Assembly (NCBI GenBank): GCA_027451445.1
Contig: DAIDJG010000052.1
Coordinates: 1 to 33,780 of the forward strand
DNA: 33,780 bases
Reading direction: 5' to 3'
Origin: Singulisphaera sp.
GTDB lineage: Bacteria; Planctomycetota; Planctomycetia; Isosphaerales; Isosphaeraceae
This document shows, in pieces, positions 21,201 through 32,215 of the stretch (position 1 is its first letter; each line of letters starts with the position of its first letter). The notes beneath the pieces were generated by a model. That model saw nothing but the letters and a program-made list of their open reading frames with translations, had not been told where the DNA came from and made no database searches. Made by a program: the position numbers and the translations under genes.

Positions 21201-21527
21201 GTTCAGGCGATCCCTGCTCCATCGTGTTGATCGCAAACTCGCGTACGGTTCCGTGTCTCAACCGTCGTTTCGCGCGAAAGCCAGGGCCTCCGTTGCCTTT
21301 CGTCGGCGTTCGCGTTGTGGGATTCGGCGCATGAATCGCCCTGCGGGGGTATCCGAATCGAAAGTGTCCCAATTAAGCTCTCAGTCGCGTGGGCTCGATG
21401 ATTGCCAAACGCGATTCAGGTGAGTATTATTCGTTCCATATTGCCATGGAGAAGCGACAAAAAAAAGACACTTCACCCCTGGCCGACACTCTTCGTTGCG
21501 AGACGTACCGGGAGGAGAGCCGCCCAG
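21201..21527. other. Intergenic region with a strong promoter
   Basis: This 327-bp gap follows the SDR gene. The first 200 bp hold nothing I recognise and no clear terminator. A good promoter lies at 21402-21430, and the last 20 bp carry the ribosome-binding site GGAGGAGA of the next gene. A longer frame opening at about 21402 overlaps the promoter and should not be taken as the protein start. Confidence 0.6.
21402..21430 (+). promoter_or_regulatory. Sigma70-type promoter for the PilT-like/KaiC-like operon
   Basis: TTGCCA (21402-21407) and TATTAT (21425-21430) are separated by exactly 17 nt, each with five of six consensus matches. The predicted start of transcription is near 21437, giving a leader of about 90 nt before the ATG at 21528. 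It is the best-matching promoter seen in the window. Confidence 0.6.
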
Positions 21528-23321
21528 ATGAGCGCCTTGAACAGTGCATCCGGGAATGCGGAGGAGGGCCTGCTTCTACCGGGATGGTATTTGGATGTCG
21601 ACGACTACACGTACTATGTCAGTCGAAACACGGCAACGACAATCGTCGATCTCTCGTCTCATGTTTCCAAGTACGAGATATTGCTGGGCGATCCTGCGTT
21701 TTCGACGGATAAGTATTCCGCCTCGTCCGGGGGTGGAGTCCATTGTCCCGACAATCCAGTGCCTAAGCTGGAGTCTTGCAACAGTTGCCGGCTATTGATC
21801 TGTAAGGCGTATGCAGGCGAAGAGATCGCAGTCACCGCGCGGCGACTTGCGAAGCCTCAACACCCGGGATCGTTCGAGAAGCGCAAGGACCCCGAGTCAT
21901 GGGAGGTTGGGGCAACCGGGTTCGTGAAGGCTCCGGACTCGGCCGATGTACCGTTTCCCGTGCCGATCTCAGCCGTTTGTGAAGAGCTCGACAAGCTTTT
22001 TCTCAACACACCGAAGCCGTCAGGGCTGATTCTTGTCTCGGGCGCCACAAACAGCGCGAAAAGCGAGCTTACGCGCGGTCTGATCGCACGGCTGATCAAA
22101 CGCCAGGTCGACGTCAAAGGTGAACGTTGGCCGCACCTGGTGACCTATGAGGACCCGATTGAGAAACGGTTTTTCCCCGATAGCAAAACGGCATTGACCC
22201 ACGGGGTGGAATATACCCCCCGACAAAAGGGTGTCGATGTCGGCTCCCTGGAATCGGCGTTCAACGACGCTCTCCGCCAAACGCCATCCGTCTTTTACGT
22301 TGGCGAAGTTCGTGAAGATGCGGATTGGAAGGAACTGATGCGGTTTGCCGGCACGGGGCACCTCATCGTCGCCACGGCGCATGCCGGCTCGCTGGTCGAG
22401 GCAATGGAGCGAGTGTTCCGTGGCATGCAGGCCAAGACCGCAGCCGACCGTGGGCAAATCGCCGCGCGCGTCCTTGCTGTAATCCATCAACGCAAGTTTG
22501 ACCTCTCGGACGACCTGCGCAAGAAGCTCCACTCTCCCAAGTTTGAATTCGAACTCTCGGACGACCAGCGCACGAGGCTCATGTCACCCAAGTTTGAATT
22601 CGAACTCTCCGACAGGTTTCAGTTCGATGTTCTCTTGCCGACCATTTGGCGCCGCACTTCGGCGGGCGTTGCGGCCTTGGTGGGCGACGGACTTGGCTCA
22701 GTGCTGCCGAACCGCCCAGGCGTTCATCAGTCCCAGGGGGGGCCAAGCAGCCTTGGGCGCCAATATTTCGCGGCGGCTCTCAGGAACCCGAACGCCTGGC
22801 AGGACCTTTTCATCGTTGATCTCCTCGGCACCATGCTCGAAAAACGCCTGCGTGCGGATATCGGCAAACTTGATAGCGAGGCGCAGAAGGTCTGGAGTTC
22901 AGCGGCCGGTGGTGATCGAAAGCAGTGGAAGGCCTGTGTTTCGCTCGCTTACCTGATCGTTCGCCTGTGGCGTGATGTGCTCCGGACCGCAGGCACGACG
23001 CGGGGCAGAAATGCGGCTTTCAAGGAGGTCGCGTCGCGCCTGCGCGACAACGGCCCTGGACTCGACGGTTCGTCGAAGGTCACACATAGCATCTGGAAGG
23101 GCCTCGCGGCCGCGAAAGTGAGGTTCGAACGGCCCGACATACCGGGTGAATCGGCGCACAATGCCGACGTCGTGGATTGGCTGCGCCTGATCATGCTGGC
23201 GGTCGCCGAGGATCGCCCGCAGATGGAGAAGCTCGCCGCGACGGCGGAGTTGGCCGAGGAGCAAGGTGCCTGGGCGCTTTTCCAAGCCGAAGCGATCCGG
23301 CTTGATCTCATGGGAGAATAA
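21528..23321 (+). CDS. PilT/VirB11-like secretion-type ATPase with Cys motif and C-terminal extension
   Basis: The protein is 597 residues from the ATG at 21528, preceded by GGAGGAGA. An N-terminal region of about 160 residues is not recognised but holds four cysteines (C73, C84, C87, C92; C-x10-C-x2-C-x4-C), a possible metal site. The ATPase core follows: Walker A 'GATNSAKS' (172-179, with Ala where Gly is usual), Asp box 'VTYEDPIEKRF' (about 205-215), 'PRQKGVDVGSLESAFNDALRQTPSVFYVGEVRE' positions 231-263 with Walker B glutamate E260, and His box 'GTGHLIVATAHAGS' (H278, H285). These match PilT and its relatives. An insertion of 17-residue repeats (322-363) follows the core. The last 190 residues are helical and unrecognised. 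No pilus genes are nearby; it heads an operon with the KaiC-like gene 6 nt downstream. Confidence 0.85.
   Translation: MSALNSASGNAEEGLLLPGWYLDVDDYTYYVSRNTATTIVDLSSHVSKYEILLGDPAFSTDKYSASSGGGVHCPDNPVPKLESCNSCRLLICKAYAGEEIAVTARRLAKPQHPGSFEKRKDPESWEVGATGFVKAPDSADVPFPVPISAVCEELDKLFLNTPKPSGLILVSGATNSAKSELTRGLIARLIKRQVDVKGERWPHLVTYEDPIEKRFFPDSKTALTHGVEYTPRQKGVDVGSLESAFNDALRQTPSVFYVGEVREDADWKELMRFAGTGHLIVATAHAGSLVEAMERVFRGMQAKTAADRGQIAARVLAVIHQRKFDLSDDLRKKLHSPKFEFELSDDQRTRLMSPKFEFELSDRFQFDVLLPTIWRRTSAGVAALVGDGLGSVLPNRPGVHQSQGGPSSLGRQYFAAALRNPNAWQDLFIVDLLGTMLEKRLRADIGKLDSEAQKVWSSAAGGDRKQWKACVSLAYLIVRLWRDVLRTAGTTRGRNAAFKEVASRLRDNGPGLDGSSKVTHSIWKGLAAAKVRFERPDIPGESAHNADVVDWLRLIMLAVAEDRPQMEKLAATAELAEEQGAWALFQAEAIRLDLMGE
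22491..22616 (+). repeat. Short tandem repeats within the PilT-like gene
   Basis: A 51-bp unit beginning CCCAAGTTTGAATTCGAAC starts at 22536 and again at 22587. A related 45-bp copy starts at 22491 and lacks 6 bp. In protein this gives KFDLSDDLRKKLHSP, KFEFELSDDQRTRLMSP and KFEFELSDRFQFD. It sits where PilT has a short loop after its Gln-rich strand, so the loop has probably grown by local duplication, keeping the frame. Confidence 0.85.
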
Positions 23322-23327
23322 CCGGCC

Positions 23328-24713
23328 GTGTCGACTCTTTCCGCTTCCGGGCCGTCGCCGAACTTACCGGTACAAGACCAATTCATTACGTTCGGCATCC
23401 CCTCGCTCGACGAGCTCCTGGGACGGCCGACGACGGCTCTCGATCCTACGTCGAAGGGGAACTTCGGACTCTATCTCGACAACTGCAATCAGTCGACAAG
23501 CATTTGCATTGTCGGTCCCGACGGCACCGGGAAGTCTGTGCTGGCGCTCCACCTGGCTGCGCAGTACGCAGCGATGGGAAACGAGAACACGCGCGTCTTT
23601 TACGCGTCGTCTGACTTATCGTTCACCAAGACGGTCGCTACATGGGTGAACTTCGCTCTCGGACTGCCCGCGACCCGGCTTTCCGAACCGGCCAAGATCC
23701 AACCTTTCGGCAGGGTCGACTACGGAGCCTTGAACGCGACGCTCCGCGTTTGGCTGGAGCGTTACCTGCCGCTCATTCCCGGTGATGTCTCGTTCGACCG
23801 TCGTGGATCTGACGACGCTTCGCCCGCCGGGAGACCACTTCCCGCGTATCTCATCGACAAGCCTCGGCGGACCTACACGCAGGACGGGCTGAAGGAAGAA
23901 CGGCACTACGTCGGGTTTATCGACCTCGAATCATCCACCGCAGGGGACGATTGGGGCCTCATCAACCGAATGCTTGCCACGATCGACGTCCCCAGCGCGA
24001 ACAGCGCCCGCCATATGCTGATCATTGACGCCGTCGAAGGGCTTCAGGCCTTCGGTGGCGACAGCGACGCCTTCGGACACGGACGCGACCGACGGTCCCG
24101 GATCGCCCAGGTCCTCCGTGCCGCCAAAGAAAAGTGTCACGTCGTCTTCGTCGTCGAAGAGCCTCGGGATCAGGAGCGTCTGCCCGAACAATTCGTGAGT
24201 GACGCCGTCATCCGGCTGCGCGTGGAACGCTCGCATGGATACGCGAGACGGACAGTCGAGATTGAGAAGCAGCGCGGACAAGGGTTCGTCCGAGGCCGGC
24301 ACGATTGCCTGATCCGCCGAGGCACCGGCTCGAGTACCGGCACGCACACGACCTGCTACAACCCGGACGACAAACCTTACAACGTGCCGGGAATCGTTCC
24401 GGTCGGCGCGAACGTGCCTCCCGAGAAGCCCTGCGCCAAAGCCTACTTTGTCGTCGTCCCCTCACTCCACTTCCTGAGCCGCGAGCTCATGGAAGCGCCC
24501 GGTGCGAAGAACGCGGACTCCCGGCTCAACCGGAACGAAAACAACTCCGACGGATTCTGCGGCACGGGCATCCCTTATCTCGACGACATGCTGGGTGACC
24601 AGGGTCGCCGCGCCCGATGCGTCCGCGACGCGGCAGCCGTCCGCGCCCTCGACACCGCAAGCGACGCCGAAGGTTTCCCATGGGGATCGATTTCATCACT
24701 CATCGGTGACTAA
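23328..24713 (+). CDS. KaiC-like ATPase, N-terminal part, ending at a stop inside the second P-loop
   Basis: This 461-residue frame begins at a GTG six bases after the PilT-like stop codon. It holds a complete KaiC/RecA-type domain: Walker A 'GPDGTGKS' (63-70), Walker B 'HMLIIDAVEGL' (229-239), and the KaiC-style end 'VIRLRVERSHGYARRTVEIEKQRGQGF'. A second domain then opens (GFCGTGIPYLDDMLG, 409-423) and reaches 'WGSISSLIGD' (452-461), where a TAA ends the frame. The next codons, in the same frame, continue 'GTHKSRVGRAF', completing a degenerate P-loop. The stop therefore falls inside a motif and the gene is most simply one 1278-codon unit running to 27164. Nonsense mutation, sequencing error and readthrough are all possible. 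Confidence 0.85.
   Translation: MSTLSASGPSPNLPVQDQFITFGIPSLDELLGRPTTALDPTSKGNFGLYLDNCNQSTSICIVGPDGTGKSVLALHLAAQYAAMGNENTRVFYASSDLSFTKTVATWVNFALGLPATRLSEPAKIQPFGRVDYGALNATLRVWLERYLPLIPGDVSFDRRGSDDASPAGRPLPAYLIDKPRRTYTQDGLKEERHYVGFIDLESSTAGDDWGLINRMLATIDVPSANSARHMLIIDAVEGLQAFGGDSDAFGHGRDRRSRIAQVLRAAKEKCHVVFVVEEPRDQERLPEQFVSDAVIRLRVERSHGYARRTVEIEKQRGQGFVRGRHDCLIRRGTGSSTGTHTTCYNPDDKPYNVPGIVPVGANVPPEKPCAKAYFVVVPSLHFLSRELMEAPGAKNADSRLNRNENNSDGFCGTGIPYLDDMLGDQGRRARCVRDAAAVRALDTASDAEGFPWGSISSLIGD
24711..24713 (+). other. In-frame TAA within the second P-loop
   Basis: Aligning the two P-loops, GPDGTGKS (63-70) matches G-D-stop-G-T-H-K-S, so the TAA takes the third position of the second loop. A single base change from codons for Lys, Gln, Glu, Ser, Leu or Tyr would create it. 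Frames on both sides are the same, and coding character continues without interruption. Confidence 0.85.
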
Positions 24714-27164
24714 GGGACCCACAAGAGCCGGGTCGGTCGCGCGTTCCTCGCCCAGGGGTTCCGCCACGAGGACGGCCGTATCGACCCCAATCGAGGCGTT
24801 GCGCTGCTGTTGACCACCCACGACCTCGACTCCGACCGGCTCGCCAAACACTTTGCCCGGCATTACGGTTGCTCCCCCTCGACCCTTAACTTCGGGGACC
24901 GAATCCTTTGCCGCCGCGTCGAGATCCACCACCTCACCGCGGCCGAGCTCTTTCGCATCGTGGCGTTGCTCGTCGAGGAAGGTCTGAAGATCCTGGCTGG
25001 TATCTCCCCGGACTCTACCGCCTGGAACGACCCCTCGAATCCCGGCCGCGTCCGGCTCGTCATCGACGACTGGAGCACGCTACGCGACTCTCACCCCGAG
25101 GTTCGCGAGGATCCCCTCTTCCTTCCTTTTGTGCTCTTTTACCTAAGGCGGCGTGGCGTCACGGTGCTGCTCATCGACACCCAGCCGGGACGGCTGAGCC
25201 ACATCCTCTCCGATGAAAGCGACCGCGAACTTAGAGCGCTTGTGGATCATCATGTCTATACATGGTATGTTACATTCTTCGGGGAAAAGCGAGTCGCGAT
25301 CTCCGCACTTCCGCCGGTGGACAATACCAAGCGAGTCGTCGTCCGCGAGCTCGCTCCCGCTGAGGGGGACAACGAGGCACTCCTCGTCGACCCGAGTTTC
25401 GAGCTTTATCAAGGCTTTGAGGATGACAAGGCGCCGACCCTCGTTCCGCTCAAGGTTCACCTATGCCGCGCGGAAGGCGCGACAGACGCGTATCACCAGG
25501 AGGTGTTTGCCGTCTTCCGCGCGGTCTTCGGCGAAGACGCCAAGGTCGAGTGGAACGACGGCGCGAAGTCCCCTGACGGCGTGCCTCGGGCTGACTACGA
25601 TCAACTCCGCAGCCAAACCTACCTTCGTGGCCGGTCGGCTCTCGAGCACACCCAGGTGCTCCAGGTCGATGAATTCTGGTCGGGTGAGAAGGATTCGGGC
25701 GAAAGTGAGACGCTCGAAGATCTGGCCGACTACCTCGAGGCACCCGTCGTCGACGCGCAGGGTCGCCCAAACCTGATTGAAGATCCCGGCAGATTGTTCC
25801 AGCCACCGCGGAATCGCGACTCCGTCCCTTCGGAACGATTCACACGGTTCTCGACAATCGGGTACAACCTGGGCGATTTCGGGGCGCCGCGGGACCGCGT
25901 TCCGTACTTTGTCGATTTCGGGTTCCTGCTCGCTCGGGAGGATCTCTGGCTCCGTGCCATCGAGAAGGGTGGTGCCGCGAGCCAAAAGATCGCAACGGTC
26001 TGGGACTCGCTGGCCGGATACCCAAAGCCGACAAATCACCGCGACCTCGCGTCCGGGATCGTGACGATCGTATCGTGGCGAGACTTCCTTGAGGCCTGCT
26101 TGGCTGTTGTCGCCTCGAGCGCATCCCCTCCCGGCACCACTGCCCCTGTCGCGTTCGACATCGACCTCACAACCATCGAAAGTCTCTCCTGCCTAGCGCT
26201 CGAAATCCTTGCCAGTGAACTCTACACGTTGGGCGCCGGAGGTGCCGACATATTCCCGAGGCATCGCCACGACGCGATTGGTCCGGGTCTGCTCGACCTC
26301 GCCGGGTCGACGGATCACACCAAGCCCCTTGCGACGGAACGGCGGCGCGCCTTCTACCGGGCTTGGCTGCTCTTGGCGGCGGCCTTCCGTTCGAACGAGC
26401 GATTCACTCGCGAGGGGTTCGAACTGAAGCCCAGGCCCGCGTCTCCACAGGCGGTGGCCTGCCGACACTGGTATTCCACCGCATGCCCAGGGTTTCAACC
26501 TGAGCTCACCCCCATACGACTCCCGGGACACTTTACCGTTCGGGGCGATTGGTTCCTGGCGGTTGCGTCCGGAAGCCGGAGTCGCCGTCTCGGAGAGCGC
26601 GCTATCGACATTTTGACGTCGCGTCGCGCCAATATAAGCCGCATGCAGCTCGGCATCGGACTCCCAACCCGAGGTTTCGACGATCGGGAAACTGCCACAT
26701 GGGAGGACGTCGAGTTCCGCTCTCCCTTAACGTTCTCCTTCGGATTGGATGGTGGTCGTCCCCGGCCCGGTGAGAATTCTGGTCGGCGCCGTTTGCTTTT
26801 CCACGACGTGCTGCGCCTCGGGGGCCAGCCGAGCGTTCCCAAGGTCTTCCTCGGCCAAGAGCCCGCGTTCTTCTGGCTGTGGCGCTCTCGACTCGAATCC
26901 TATGAGCGACACTCGCGAACGTGGCGGAAATGGCTGCTCTACGCCCTCGATGACAGTCTGAACAGTTCCAACAACACGGAGTATCCGGAATTCGCGGACC
27001 TTCAGGGTCCTGAGGCTTTCCTCGCCCTGTACGACCAAGATTTGTCGCCCGGAGCCGTGTTTGAGGGGCCGGTCGTCGACGGCTTCGAACGCCTTCGCGC
27101 CATCTTGAGCGTCGCCCTTGAACGGGCCACATTTCGGATCGGGGAGCGCGTAGGCGGCAAGTGA
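24714..27164 (+). pseudogene. KaiC-like second domain plus solute-binding-protein-like C-terminus (same gene as 23328, after the stop)
   Basis: The frame continues from the TAA for 816 residues. The first possible restart is a TTG at 24810 (784 residues), which would lose the P-loop, and no ribosome-binding site supports it. The second RecA-like domain shows 'ALLLTTHDLDSDRLAKHF' and a Walker B-like 'GRVRLVIDDWSTL'. The next 550 residues resemble family-1 extracellular solute-binding proteins: 'YHQEVFAVFRAVFG', 'TQVLQVDEFWSGE ... LEDLADYLEA', 'STIGYNLGDFGAP' and 'GDWFLAVASGSRSRRLGERA'. There is no signal peptide, so this would be a cytoplasmic binding module. That resemblance is by eye only. 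It is called a pseudogene part because translation needs readthrough or restart; if the TAA is an error, this is an intact enzyme. Confidence 0.6.
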
Positions 27165-27447: not shown

Positions 27448-27918
27448 TTGTGGCGGGTTGGTGAAATCGTGGTAAACCGGGGTAGATATTACGGAGTTGT
27501 ACGGCGGTCAGCGGCACCTCAGGCCTGTCCGAGTTCCGCTCAGTTGTTTGAGTGTGCGCAGCGTCGGGCCACGGAGGTCGAGAGGGGACTGATCCCTCTC
27601 TTTGTGAAGTTCGTTGAGACGCGTTATCAGCTTAACACGCTCGACTTTCCGCCGGAAGGCGACCGGGACAAAGCGAAGTCGTCGATTTTGCACGAACTTG
27701 GCGACCTTGGGTCGCTTCTGATTCAAATCGCTCAGGGTCAATCGATTCCCGCTGATGAATTGCAGCGTCGGTATCACAAGCTGACGTTCACGTGTCAACA
27801 CGGTGGTCTGCGACTCGACCGCCCCGACACGATGGGGGAGTATTTGGGACGTCGCCTCGGAGATGAGTTGAATCGTCTCGGAGAGTATCTTAAAGCGCCC
27901 TCTCCTGCCGCCCCTTGA
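27448..27918 (+). CDS. Small helical hypothetical protein (156 aa)
   Basis: The frame opens with TTG at 27448; a GTG at 27469, preceded by GGTGA, is an alternative. I do not recognise the protein. It is mostly amphipathic helix: 'ECAQRRATEVERGLIPLFVKFVETRY', 'KAKSSILHELGDLGSLLIQIAQG', 'ADELQRRYHKLTF' and 'MGEYLGRRLGDELNRLGEYL'. It has two cysteines near the N-terminus and one in 'FTCQHGG', with no clear metal motif. No signal peptide or membrane helix is seen. It follows the PilT-like/KaiC-like pair by 283 bp and appears to have its own promoter, so a functional tie to that pair is possible but unproven. Confidence 0.55.
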   Translation: MWRVGEIVVNRGRYYGVVRRSAAPQACPSSAQLFECAQRRATEVERGLIPLFVKFVETRYQLNTLDFPPEGDRDKAKSSILHELGDLGSLLIQIAQGQSIPADELQRRYHKLTFTCQHGGLRLDRPDTMGEYLGRRLGDELNRLGEYLKAPSPAAP

Positions 27919-28274
27919 ACCACCTCCGACCGGCACTGGTTTCCGGCGCAGCTCGGTCGCTCTCACGTCGCGTTACGTTTCTGTGCTACGAACGAGACCG
28001 CGCCGGGTTGACCGCCGGCGTCTGTCTCGAGTGTCTACGGTAGCGTCTTTCTTGCCGTCGACGCCGGGCGCGGAACGATTCAAGGTTCCGGTCCCATCGA
28101 TTCTGCCGGCGTCGTGGTCAACACTGGCCGTAACCGCTGTGTGGTTGAAATCCCAATCCAGCGGCCGGATAATCGCATCCCTTACGGCGGTTTGCACTCG
28201 GTCGTGGCTTGTCATCGACGTACTGTTCGATTCGCAATTCGATGCCCACGACAAATCAACCAGGAGTCCTCCTC
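27919..28274. other. Intergenic region before the NHL gene
   Basis: This 356-bp gap contains short frames on both strands with no good start signals. A candidate promoter lies at 28145-28174 and a ribosome-binding site CAGGAG just before the next gene. Nothing else is recognised. Confidence 0.5.
28145..28174 (+). promoter_or_regulatory. Candidate promoter for the NHL-repeat gene
   Basis: TTGAAA (28145-28150) and GATAAT (28169-28174) are spaced by 18 nt. The hexamers match consensus at four and five of six positions. The start of transcription would be near 28181, giving a leader of about 95 nt. Confidence 0.4.
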
Positions 28275-29288
28275 ATGAAGACCCGTTTCACTCCCGTCGC
28301 AGTCGCCCTCGTTTTCGGCTTCGCGTTGCCGGTGGTCGCCGCTGAGAAGACGGAACCCGTGCGCATGGGCTGCGGCGCGATGACGTTTGACACCGTGCCC
28401 GGCTGGGGCCTTGGCGACGACGGCAAGTCCGTCATCGGGCCGTGCCACGGGAGCGTCGTTGTCGACAAGGAAGGCAACATCTACACGAGCTCCCATGCCG
28501 GAGTCTTCGTCTTCTCGCCCGACGGCAAGAAAATTCGCAGCTACCTCGGGGACAAGTACTCCGACATTCATGACATGAAGATTCGCGAGGAAGACGAGGG
28601 CGAGTTTATCTACGGGGCCCGGAACAACAACCGGGAAGGGTTCAAGTTCAACGCCCAAACCGGCGAGATTGTACTGAAGCTGCCCTTCCCAGAGTCGTCC
28701 GGCTTGAACTTGAAGCAGTTCAACCCCACCGCGATCACCGTGGCGCCCAACGGCGATATCTTCCTGTCGGACGGTTATGCGAGCAACCATATCTTCAAGT
28801 TCGACAAGACGGGTAAATACTTGATGCACTTCGGGACCAAGGGAAACGGTCTCAAGGAGTTCAGCACCGCCCACGGCATGACGCTCGACACGCGTTACAA
28901 CCCGCCCCGACTGTTGATCTGCGACCGCAATCACCAGCCCAAGGGCCGCCTCTTGCATTACTCGCTCGAAGGTGAGTTCATCGAGGAAGTGGTCACCGGC
29001 CTCGGAATGCCCACGTCGGCCGTGGTTCAGGGCGACTTCGTCTCCGTCCCCGACCTGCACGGGCGGCTCGTGATCCTGAACAAGAACAACACCATCATCT
29101 CGGTCCTCGGCAACAACCCCGACCCCGCGAAAGGCGGCAATTACAACATTCCGCAAGCGAAGTGGATCGAGGGCATCTTCAGCGGTACGCACGGCTCGTC
29201 GTGGGACAAGGACGGGAATCTGTACGTCCAGGATTGGAACGTCTCGGGACGTATCATGAAGCTGGTGAGGGTGAAGATCACGCCGTGA
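28275..29288 (+). CDS. Secreted NHL-repeat beta-propeller protein
   Basis: The protein is 337 residues from the ATG at 28275, after CAGGAG; a frame running further upstream is not needed. A signal peptide (MKTRFTPVAVALVFGFALPV, cleaved after VAA) sends it out of the cytoplasm. The mature protein shows NHL-type blades: 'GSVVVDKEGNIYTSSHAGVFVFSPDGKK', positions about 55-82, 'ITVAPNGDIFLSDGYASNHI', 'GMTLDTRYNPPRLLICDR' and 'GSSWDKDGNLYVQDW'. This predicts a six-bladed propeller related to the peptidyl-alpha-hydroxyglycine lyase-like NHL proteins abundant in planctomycetes. No catalytic assignment can be made with certainty; the conserved 'GPCHGS' and 'DIHDMKI' could be metal-binding. It stands alone, 72 bp before the sigma factor gene. 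Confidence 0.85.
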   Translation: MKTRFTPVAVALVFGFALPVVAAEKTEPVRMGCGAMTFDTVPGWGLGDDGKSVIGPCHGSVVVDKEGNIYTSSHAGVFVFSPDGKKIRSYLGDKYSDIHDMKIREEDEGEFIYGARNNNREGFKFNAQTGEIVLKLPFPESSGLNLKQFNPTAITVAPNGDIFLSDGYASNHIFKFDKTGKYLMHFGTKGNGLKEFSTAHGMTLDTRYNPPRLLICDRNHQPKGRLLHYSLEGEFIEEVVTGLGMPTSAVVQGDFVSVPDLHGRLVILNKNNTIISVLGNNPDPAKGGNYNIPQAKWIEGIFSGTHGSSWDKDGNLYVQDWNVSGRIMKLVRVKITP

Positions 29289-29360
29289 GCGCACAACGGC
29301 ACGAAACAATTCCTGGCTGATTAAGAGCACACTTCGCTTCGCATTCGGAGCTGCTGGCCG

Positions 29361-30104
29361 ATGGAGAACTCGTCGGTTCATCCGTCGGCCGGCCCCTTTC
29401 CGACGACGTGCTGGAGCAATGTTGCCCGGGCAGGCGATCCCGACAACCCGGCGACGCGCGACGGGTTGGCAGCGCTTTGCGCGGCGTACTGGTTTCCGCT
29501 CTATTGTTTCATTCGACGCAAAGGACACAACGCCGAGGTCGCTCTTGACCTTACACAGGAGTACTTTGCCCGTTTCCTCGAGAAAGGAATCCTTGGGTCT
29601 GCCGATCGACATAAGGGTCGCTTTCGTTCCTTCCTTTTTGCCGACTGCAACCATTTCCTCGCGCATTATCATGATCACAATGCAGCGCAAAAGCGCGGGG
29701 GAGGCCGGACGCCCATTTCCATTGATGCCCGCGACGCCGAGGGGCGCTACCGCGCGGAACCATCTCATAACGTTACCGCAGAGCAACTCTTCGCTCGAGA
29801 TTGGGCTCTCACACTGCTTGCCGACGTGCTCAACCGTCTTCGCTGTGAGTACGAAGCATCGGGCCGGTCCAGGATTTTTGAAGCGCTCAAGGAAGTTCTC
29901 AGCGATGGCTCGCCACGAGCGCCTCACGCTGAGCTTGCCGCGGCCATTGGTAGCACGCCGCGAGCCGTGCAGGTCGCCGTTCACAGGCTGCGTAAGCGCT
30001 ATCGAGAATTGATCCGGGAAGTAATCCTCACAACCGTCGCTGATCCCGGCGACGTCGAGGCCGAGATCCGTGACCTGTTTGTTGCACTGGGCGGCCCGTT
30101 TTGA
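29361..30104 (+). CDS. ECF-type RNA polymerase sigma factor
   Basis: The protein is 247 residues. Region 2 is visible as 'LCAAYWFPLYCFIRRKGHNAEVALDLTQEYFARFLEKG' (about residues 33-70), the core-binding and -10-recognition part. Region 4 is 'AELAAAIGSTPRAVQVAVHRLRKRYRELIREVI' (about 193-225), a helix-turn-helix for the -35 element. The long spacer and the C-terminal extension (DPGDVEAEIRDLFVALGG) fit planctomycete ECF groups that are encoded beside Ser/Thr kinases. No anti-sigma factor is adjacent; the kinase gene starts 86 bp downstream and is the probable regulator. The promoter it recognises is unknown. Confidence 0.9.
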   Translation: MENSSVHPSAGPFPTTCWSNVARAGDPDNPATRDGLAALCAAYWFPLYCFIRRKGHNAEVALDLTQEYFARFLEKGILGSADRHKGRFRSFLFADCNHFLAHYHDHNAAQKRGGGRTPISIDARDAEGRYRAEPSHNVTAEQLFARDWALTLLADVLNRLRCEYEASGRSRIFEALKEVLSDGSPRAPHAELAAAIGSTPRAVQVAVHRLRKRYRELIREVILTTVADPGDVEAEIRDLFVALGGPF

Positions 30105-30190
30105 GGATTTCCACGCGCCGGTCTGTATCATTGGAAAACGGATCGGGTACTTGTAATCAGTGCCCCCATCCTCCTCGTGGAGATCCGTCC

Positions 30191-32215
30191 ATGGCTGATA
30201 ACCATCGCTGCCCAAATTGCGGCGCCGAGCGTCTTGATCAGGCCCCCGAAGGGCTCTGCCCCAAGTGCCTACTGGAAAACGCGCTCGGGCGCCAGACCGG
30301 ACAATCGGCTGACGTCACTTTTGCCTTTGAGTCGACACACGCGGGAGCCGTGCTCGAATCACTGGCTCGATCCGTCGGTCCAATCCCGCGAATCCTTTTG
30401 CCGGACACTCACCCGGACGATCGCGGAACTCATGTCGTCAAACCGTCCTCGCCAGAAATGCCCGCACTCGAAACGCGCGGCGACCGGTACATCCTCTTCG
30501 GCGAGATCGCCCGCGGTGGGATGGGAGCGATCCTCAAAGGTCGCGACGCGGACCTCGGCCGCGACCTGGCCGTCAAAGTGCTCCTCGAAAGCCATAGGGG
30601 CAAGCCCGATCTGGTTCGGAGGTTTGTCGAGGAGGCGCAGATTGGGGGCCAACTCCAACATCCCGGAATCGTTCCGGTGTACGAGTTGGGAACGTTCGCG
30701 GACCAGCGTCCGTTTTTCACCATGAAACTTATCAAGGGCCGCACTCTTGGTGCTCTTCTGAACGAGCGCAAGGAACCGGAAGAAGGATTCGCTCGCTTCG
30801 TTGATATTTTTGAGAGAGTTTGCCAGACGGTCGCCTATTCCCATGCCCGCGGAGTGATTCATCGCGACCTGAAACCCGCCAACATCATGGTCGGTGGGTT
30901 CGGCGAGGTGCAGGTGATGGACTGGGGACTGGCGAAAGTCCTCAAGGAGGGAGGTGTCGCGGACGAGCCGGAGGTACCGCCAGCGGGCAGCGTAAGTGTC
31001 ATCCGCACGGTACGGAGTGACTCGGATGGTGATGAGTCGCAAGCGGGCAGCGTGCTCGGTACGCCGGCTTACATGGCTCCGGAGCAGGCCAACGGGGACA
31101 TCGAGCAAGTCGACCGGCGTGCGGATGTCTTTGGCCTGGGGTCGGTCCTTTGCGAGATCCTTACTGGCCAGCCCGCGTACACCGGGAAAACACCTTCCGA
31201 AGTCCTGCGAAAGGCGGCTCGTGGCGATACGGCCGAGGCACTTTCGAGGCTCGATGCCTGCCATGCTGATGCTGAGTTGATGGCCCTCGCCAAGGAATGC
31301 CTCGCCGCGGAAGCAGACCAGCGTCCGAACGACGCGGGCATCGTGGCTGATCGTATCAGCGCGTACCGCGCGAGCGTCGCCGAGAGGCTTCGCGCAGCGG
31401 AACTGGCAAGGGTTGAGGCGCAGGCGAGGGCCGAAGAAGAAGTCAAGCGGCGCGCACTTGCGGATCAGCTCACGGTTGCTGCGGAGGCACGCGTGAAAGA
31501 GGAACGCCGCCGCCGAAAGCTTCAGGTCGGCCTGGCTGCGTCATTGCTCGCGCTGGTGGTCGTGGGCGGCCTGGGGACGACGTATTTCGTCCAGCAACGG
31601 CAACAGCGCTCTGACGCGGTCCTGCGAGCGCTCACTGAAGCCACGACCCTCCGCGATCAGGCTCGCGAACACCCCGACGATCCGGCTCGCTGGCGAGTGG
31701 CCCTGGGAACGATCCGACAGGTCGAGCGTGTTTTGAGCCCGAGTGCGAATCGCGACGCGTGGGTGCAATTCATCAGGCTGCGCGACGAGGTCGAATCCGA
31801 AACCGCTACAACGGAGCGCGATCGCGAGCTACTCGAGCGCTTGGCCGATCTTCGAAGTTCCGGGGCCGCCGAGGGGGCAAATTACGCCGCTCGTTACACC
31901 GACGCACTCCGCCGGGCCGGCTACGATGTCGAAGGGCACTCGCCGGCCGAAGTAGGAACGAAGATCGGAAAACGCCCGAAGCCTGTGGCGCAGTTCATCG
32001 CAGCCGTACTGGATGAGGCCGCTGCAGCGTGGACGACCTTTTCTCTTGACATCGAGACGGCTCGTGCACGCGCACTCCGTCTGACCGAGGTTGCCCAGTT
32101 GGCGGACGCGAATCCCTGGCGCCACGCACTCCGCAAAGCCCTGGTTCAACCCGATCAGACGGCAAGATTGGCTGCGCTCCGGGATGTGTCAAATCGGCGC
32201 GGTTCGACGAGCTGA
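30191..32215 (+). CDS. Zinc-ribbon Ser/Thr protein kinase with TM segment, separated from its TPR half
   Basis: The protein is 674 residues from the ATG at 30191, after GTGGAG. The N-terminus is a zinc ribbon, CPNC (7-10) and CPKC (23-26), common in planctomycete kinases. The kinase domain (about 100-395) is complete: Gly loop GEIARGGMG (104-112), K129, E148, HRDLKPAN (224-231), DWG (244-246, a DFG variant), APE (296-298). A charged coiled coil leads to a TM helix (about 447-467), then an outer region with 'ANPWRHALRKALVQPD'. In relatives this continues into TPRs in the same chain. Here the frame ends at a TGA while the TPR sequence goes on in another frame from the same spot, so the gene looks frameshifted near 32185-32200. 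Confidence 0.9.
   Translation: MADNHRCPNCGAERLDQAPEGLCPKCLLENALGRQTGQSADVTFAFESTHAGAVLESLARSVGPIPRILLPDTHPDDRGTHVVKPSSPEMPALETRGDRYILFGEIARGGMGAILKGRDADLGRDLAVKVLLESHRGKPDLVRRFVEEAQIGGQLQHPGIVPVYELGTFADQRPFFTMKLIKGRTLGALLNERKEPEEGFARFVDIFERVCQTVAYSHARGVIHRDLKPANIMVGGFGEVQVMDWGLAKVLKEGGVADEPEVPPAGSVSVIRTVRSDSDGDESQAGSVLGTPAYMAPEQANGDIEQVDRRADVFGLGSVLCEILTGQPAYTGKTPSEVLRKAARGDTAEALSRLDACHADAELMALAKECLAAEADQRPNDAGIVADRISAYRASVAERLRAAELARVEAQARAEEEVKRRALADQLTVAAEARVKEERRRRKLQVGLAASLLALVVVGGLGTTYFVQQRQQRSDAVLRALTEATTLRDQAREHPDDPARWRVALGTIRQVERVLSPSANRDAWVQFIRLRDEVESETATTERDRELLERLADLRSSGAAEGANYAARYTDALRRAGYDVEGHSPAEVGTKIGKRPKPVAQFIAAVLDEAAAAWTTFSLDIETARARALRLTEVAQLADANPWRHALRKALVQPDQTARLAALRDVSNRRGSTS

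Follow-up and report, generated by a model that had tools for sequence, protein, structure and literature searches.

A KaiC-like gene of Singulisphaera sp. carries a single in-frame TAA within the second P-loop of its product, at a site where its relatives in other assemblies have a sense codon. The stop is private to this genome; it is therefore probably a nonsense mutation of recent date, with a base error as the less likely cause, in a normally continuous double-KaiC-like gene that shares an operon with a PilT-like ATPase.

Results

An in-frame stop in a KaiC-like gene

The window, meaning the whole 33,780-nucleotide stretch that was analysed, is the entire contig 52 of an assembly of 10.9 Mb in 622 contigs (96.4% complete, 4.8% contaminated). 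In the NadA region it shares 82% identity with the one other genome of its genus, so that the contig fits the genome. The KaiC-like frame starts with GTG at 23328 and ends with TGA at 27162-27164; its features are:

23328-27164, + strand: whole KaiC-like gene, 461 codons, the stop and 816 codons (1278 positions)
23328..24713, + strand: gene before the stop, 461 aa, with the first KaiC-like domain and the start of the second (translation; PF06745, E 2.5e-10)
23514..23537, + strand: first P-loop GPDGTGKS, canonical (GP[DE]G[TS]GKS in six of the six sequences covering it)
24018..24041, + strand: Walker B of the first domain, LIIDAVEG (family alignment)
24705..24728, + strand: second P-loop, degenerate, GD(stop)GTHKS (family alignment; TIGR03880 profile match)
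24711..24713, + strand: in-frame TAA stop (sequence reading)
24714..27164, + strand: continuation past the TAA, in frame for 816 codons (codon signal, homology, tblastn)
24810..24812, + strand: earliest in-frame restart candidate, TTG, 32 codons past the stop and beyond the P-loop
25056..25070, + strand: Walker B-like LVIDD of the second domain (family alignment)
25650..27161, + strand: C-terminal region of about 500 aa, conserved among the relatives; no known family matches it

A first-pass annotation of this DNA had read SSLIGD, a stop and GTHKSRVGRAF in one frame, and translation from the GTG at 23328 confirms it. Its further claim, that coding continues in the same frame for 816 residues, is backed by codon signal and homology. 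The other two forward frames contain 14 and 21 stops within 24714-27164, and an open frame of 816 codons would arise by chance, at random composition, with p about 2e-11. GC3 of the gene is 0.74 before the stop and 0.73 after it, and the codon log-odds of its frame are 0.216 and 0.187 bits per codon, respectively, with negative values for the other two forward frames. Just past the stop the antisense mirror frame scores about equally by codon usage (0.34 vs 0.32 for the KaiC-like frame), hence strand and frame of the gene rest on homology. In tblastn, the proteins of three relatives (L156, G912 and G1094) each cross the TAA in a single one-frame alignment, and that of a fourth (L157) gives two alignments flanking it, both in the same frame. 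Throughout the 1278 codons the TAA is the sole internal stop and no frameshift was seen: the gene is otherwise intact, as annotated.

Domains of the KaiC-like protein

Residues 1-461 match PF06745 with 40.5 bits against a curated cut-off of 26.6 (E 2.5e-10); by the same cut-off P0004, P0005, L168 and L167 score 51.9, 51.4, 46.4 and 28.1 bits. Just before the stop, the onset of the second domain, DGFCGTGIPYLDDMLG, is identical to that of the first, DQFITFGIPSLDELLG, at 9 of 16 positions. The TIGR03880 KaiC profile spans the stop (residues 449-480, E 3.7e-4), and downstream of it come LVIDD and then about 700 more residues. All PDB profile matches of the protein are to KaiC, the best with E 1.9e-7.

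The protein thus resembles KaiC (PF06745; cyanobacterial KaiC) in its tandem RecA-like segments, canonical first P-loop and Walker B, and it also has the KaiC strand motif E.FVSD...R.....RRTVE..K.RG. It differs from KaiC by its degenerate second P-loop, by insertions and by the extra C-terminal region of about 500 residues. A circadian-type two-domain KaiC requires two canonical P-loops, whereas the family described here has only the first; far under the equivalog cut-offs, the protein scores 12 bits with circ_KaiC (cut-off 546.25) and 27.3 with PRK09302 (cut-off 408). The NCBIfam ArlH model gives 16.6 bits against a cut-off of 215, and the PADLOC defence models gave no convincing match, mad8 (8.5e-5) being confined to a P-loop region.

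The C-terminal 500 or so residues matched no family in Pfam (best E 0.55 over 6 members), and in a profile search of the PDB only two tRNA ligases (E 0.35-0.36). By eye, residues from about 1040 to 1120 had looked like an extracellular solute-binding protein, which neither the Pfam nor the PDB profile search supports. Structure prediction of the KaiC-like protein reached a mean pLDDT of 34.6 with one sequence and 30.5 with three.

Relatives are few and distant

Relatives were sought by whole-protein search, then by P-loop motif search and then with a three-sequence profile. The whole-protein search, over 45 genomes of the same family and 392 of the phylum, returned only the window itself and weak matches (E 1e-4 to 1e-3). 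Among the latter, the match in G014 is antisense to another gene, and those in G011 and G175 fall over the KaiC strand region. No relative was found in the plasmids and phages searched, in the viral contigs scanned, or in the genome contigs scanned with exact 8-mers.

The P-loop motif search led to four loci, two of them true relatives: L156, from a Fimbriiglobus MAG (JANYHV010000373.1), and L157, from a Terriglobia MAG (JANYJA010000155.1), whose identities to the window protein are 40% and 41%, respectively. The other two, L158 and L159, were dropped after reading of their ORFs, having just a P-loop in common. With the three-sequence profile, matches came from 2 of 102 genomes in the order of L156 and 4 of 257 in that of L157, own genomes included. 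In the phylum of L157 it was 1 of 396, namely the genome of L157 itself; as this set samples the phylum in part, there is no conflict with the count in the order. The profile added G912, G1094, G1091 and G1153, of which G1091 is a C-terminal fragment at a contig start and does not cover the stop site. None of the closest relatives found exceeds 45% identity.

The stop site in relatives

Five relatives in other assemblies cover the site (L156, L157, G912, G1094 and G1153). A comparison with orthologues had been suggested as a check on the stop: in each of these five the aligned position holds a sense codon. It encodes five different residues, the second P-loops reading GEQGTFKS, GDSETQKT, GPLTTHKS, GDPHTHKI and GDANTSKT against GD(stop)GTHKS in the window. 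Each relative having a different residue, the position is not under tight constraint.

In all six sequences the second P-loop lacks the glycine before the lysine. The first-pass annotation had placed the stop in an ATP-binding motif whose two flanks align with the first P-loop. The location holds, insofar as this is the second P-loop, and five of seven comparable positions agree (GDxGTHKS vs GPDGTGKS); however, position 6 is H and not G, and the loop is degenerate family-wide. As judged from sequence, it is a relic or a modified nucleotide site and not a canonical ATP site.

The gene is a single ORF of 1403 aa in L156, and of 1269 and 1287 aa in G912 and G1094. In L157 it is open over 1127 aa to the contig end, the remainder being on another contig. 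With three single ORFs and a fourth open to its contig end, the two halves are not separate genes in the orthologues, the finding that had been named as able to overturn the annotation. In G1153 an ORF of 730 aa ends after the second P-loop in a repeated element; the same genome contains at least 40 identical copies of this element, many of them located at the ends of contigs. The gene in G1153 has thus probably been disrupted as well, downstream of the second P-loop, and since it is cut by a repeated element, loss of the KaiC-like gene is probably not unique to the window.

This cut by the repeated element lies at the end of contig 205 of the G1153 genome (L170, 8320-8452). The short ORF that ends L170, in the reverse frame, presumably resembles a transposase tail; it had no match in Pfam or in plasmids.

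Age of the lesion

Identity to L156 is 38.6% before the stop and 41.2% after it; against L157 the values are 44.4% and 39.5%. The window has 50 changes of its own before the stop and 69 after it, L156 has 60 and 67 (Fisher p 0.44) and L157 has 35 and 76 (p 0.10 vs the window). By identity and unique-change counts against these two relatives, constraint shows no relaxation beyond the stop. The lesion, if real, would then be young, as the window-unique changes are not in excess beyond it; a moderately old lesion would also leave no trace at about 40% identity.

Background of split genes in the assembly

From the same assembly we sampled 80 stretches (1,075,023 bases), where 76 same-frame pairs of open stretches passed the filters. 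Of the pairs whose first start lies at least 25 codons past the stop, all but four were covered by a positive-scoring competing frame. Those four (L104, L142, L151 and L144) were judged on reading by eye to be real gene ends, L142 being what we take to be a complete Rho-like protein. No comparable split gene was thus confirmed in this small sample of 1.075 Mb, with a 95% upper limit of about 3 per Mb, so lesions of this kind do not abound in the assembly. Among the PF06745 matches listed for the family, none has an internal stop.

Among the 444 long ORFs sampled, 80 terminate at TAA, which makes it an ordinary stop in this genome. Around the stop, no structured RNA was found beyond that of shuffles (z 0.44, -0.64 and 1.27), and a scan of the window detected no tRNA genes.

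Explanations of the stop

The stop itself is ordinary, one more broken or mis-assembled gene, though a clean case, as recoding, two genes and a private lesion can be told apart by means of homologues. Of the options raised at first pass, a fresh nonsense mutation and a base-call error both survive; recoding into a one-domain and a two-domain form does not gain support, with the stop in none of the five relatives and no structured RNA beside it. A nonsense mutation, which we regard as the probable explanation, would end translation at 24711 and leave a product of 461 aa that has just the first KaiC domain. Because the earliest restart lies beyond the P-loop, the second KaiC domain and the C-terminal region would be lost, and the gene pair would probably be inactive or impaired in this strain. 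Its main competitor, to which we give an appreciable yet distinctly smaller chance, is a base-call or consensus error: the gene would be intact in the organism and the stop present only in the assembly. A single-codon lesion in a frame otherwise intact, with no relaxation beyond it and in a fragmented assembly of 622 contigs, would be expected of such an error, and false internal stops are known from assembly errors, which inflate internal-stop pseudogenes according to PMC11017572. The sample of the same assembly speaks against it, having yielded no comparable confirmed stop, as do the PF06745 matches listed for the family, free of internal stops.

The unrelaxed constraint past the TAA could alternatively mean that the stop is tolerated, basal readthrough giving a little full-length protein, through which selection on the gene would persist for some time. 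A part of PMC7918605 describes in-frame stops with low dN/dS as widespread in bacteria and frequently short-lived; TAA is absent from the leaky or recoded codons named there (TGA, TAG). No relative has a stop at the site, RNA structure there is no greater than in shuffles, and we consider a tolerated stop improbable. The bacterial genes with in-frame stops of PMC7918605 and the assembly-made pseudogenes of PMC11017572 resemble our case by a single internal stop within a frame that is conserved elsewhere, and differ from it in that the stop position of the present gene is not kept in homologues.

Two further readings are very improbable. Programmed recoding, or regulated readthrough of TAA, would produce one-domain and two-domain forms, of which the short one could fold, since a KaiC-like domain is already encoded ahead of the stop. 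Against it count the absence of the stop from all five relatives, of a structured element, and of any tRNA gene in the window, and the ordinary use of TAA in the sampled ORFs. TAA is neither the selenocysteine nor the pyrrolysine codon. Equally hard to credit are two genes, the second starting from the TTG at 24810, 32 codons past the stop and in frame: these first 32 codons, half of the P-loop among them, show homology to the family and would be missing from such a gene, and four relatives read through the site as one ORF. As an ancestral state, a two-gene arrangement is refuted by the uninterrupted homologues.

A PilT-like partner gene

Directly upstream of the KaiC-like gene lies a second ATPase gene, with the following features:

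21402..23321, + strand: PilT-like (T2SSE) ATPase, 639 aa from its earliest candidate start (Pfam T2SSE, 3.1e-16)
22041..22064, + strand: P-loop of the partner, GATNSAKS (translation, alignment)
22503..22613, + strand: in-frame tandem repeat of 51 bp in the partner, 2.2 copies, 17 residues, absent from the two aligned homologues

It ends 6 nt before the KaiC-like gene. In six of the six loci that contain the gene start (the window, L156, L157, G912, G1094 and G1153) a PilT-like gene is directly upstream, at spacings from a 31-nt overlap to a 6-nt gap by first possible starts. Loci noted for the pair are L156 (6858-11069), L157 (7878-11258), L167 (9041-12850) and L168 (7771-11634). When the neighbourhoods of the homologous loci were read by eye, no third shared gene stood out.

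The core of the partner is like that of the PilT/PilU retraction ATPases: it matches NCBIfam pilT_fam with 9e-22 and is nearest to PilT, not ArlI, by PDB profile (4e-19). The likeness is nevertheless limited to this ATPase core, the 77.7 bits being below the curated cut-off of 319.1. In that a KaiC-like protein is encoded with a secretion-type ATPase, the pair also recalls ArlH-ArlI, and weak model matches exist for both (ArlH, 0.005, for the KaiC-like protein; archaellum FlaI, 0.0022, for the partner). A single KaiC domain is found in ArlH, however, and the partner is nearer to PilT than to ArlI, so that the pair shares the layout of ArlH-ArlI without belonging to that system. The scanned neighbours in the window (NadA, MIOX, SDR, NHL, kinase, TPR) form no archaellum cluster, and no platform protein or pilin gene was seen among them.

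KaiC-like proteins are timers or switches and PilT-like ATPases are motors, which makes the pair a testable motor-and-switch candidate. In the intact pair, the PilT-like protein would serve as a ring motor and the KaiC-like protein as its ATP-binding partner or switch. We advance only tentatively, as a possibility that we doubt more than we believe, that the two genes constitute an undescribed motor-and-switch module scattered among Planctomycetes and Acidobacteria, a bacterial counterpart of ArlI-ArlH in its logic, and that this genome is a natural mutant left with the first KaiC domain alone. According to PMC8978795, ArlH, itself KaiC-like, binds ATP and autophosphorylates, and it modulates ArlI. 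By title or abstract start, no description of the gene pair was found in open-licence PMC papers. We find the pair of more interest than the stop: it is rare, sporadic and tightly coupled in distant phyla, and has a C-terminal region without a Pfam or PDB family.

Other observations in the window

Downstream of the KaiC-like gene, an ORF of 156 aa (27448-27918, + strand) has no Pfam match. Finally, a 667-aa open frame on the - strand (28212-30215) lies opposite the NHL-repeat gene and its neighbour, and is probably a shadow frame of GC-rich coding DNA.
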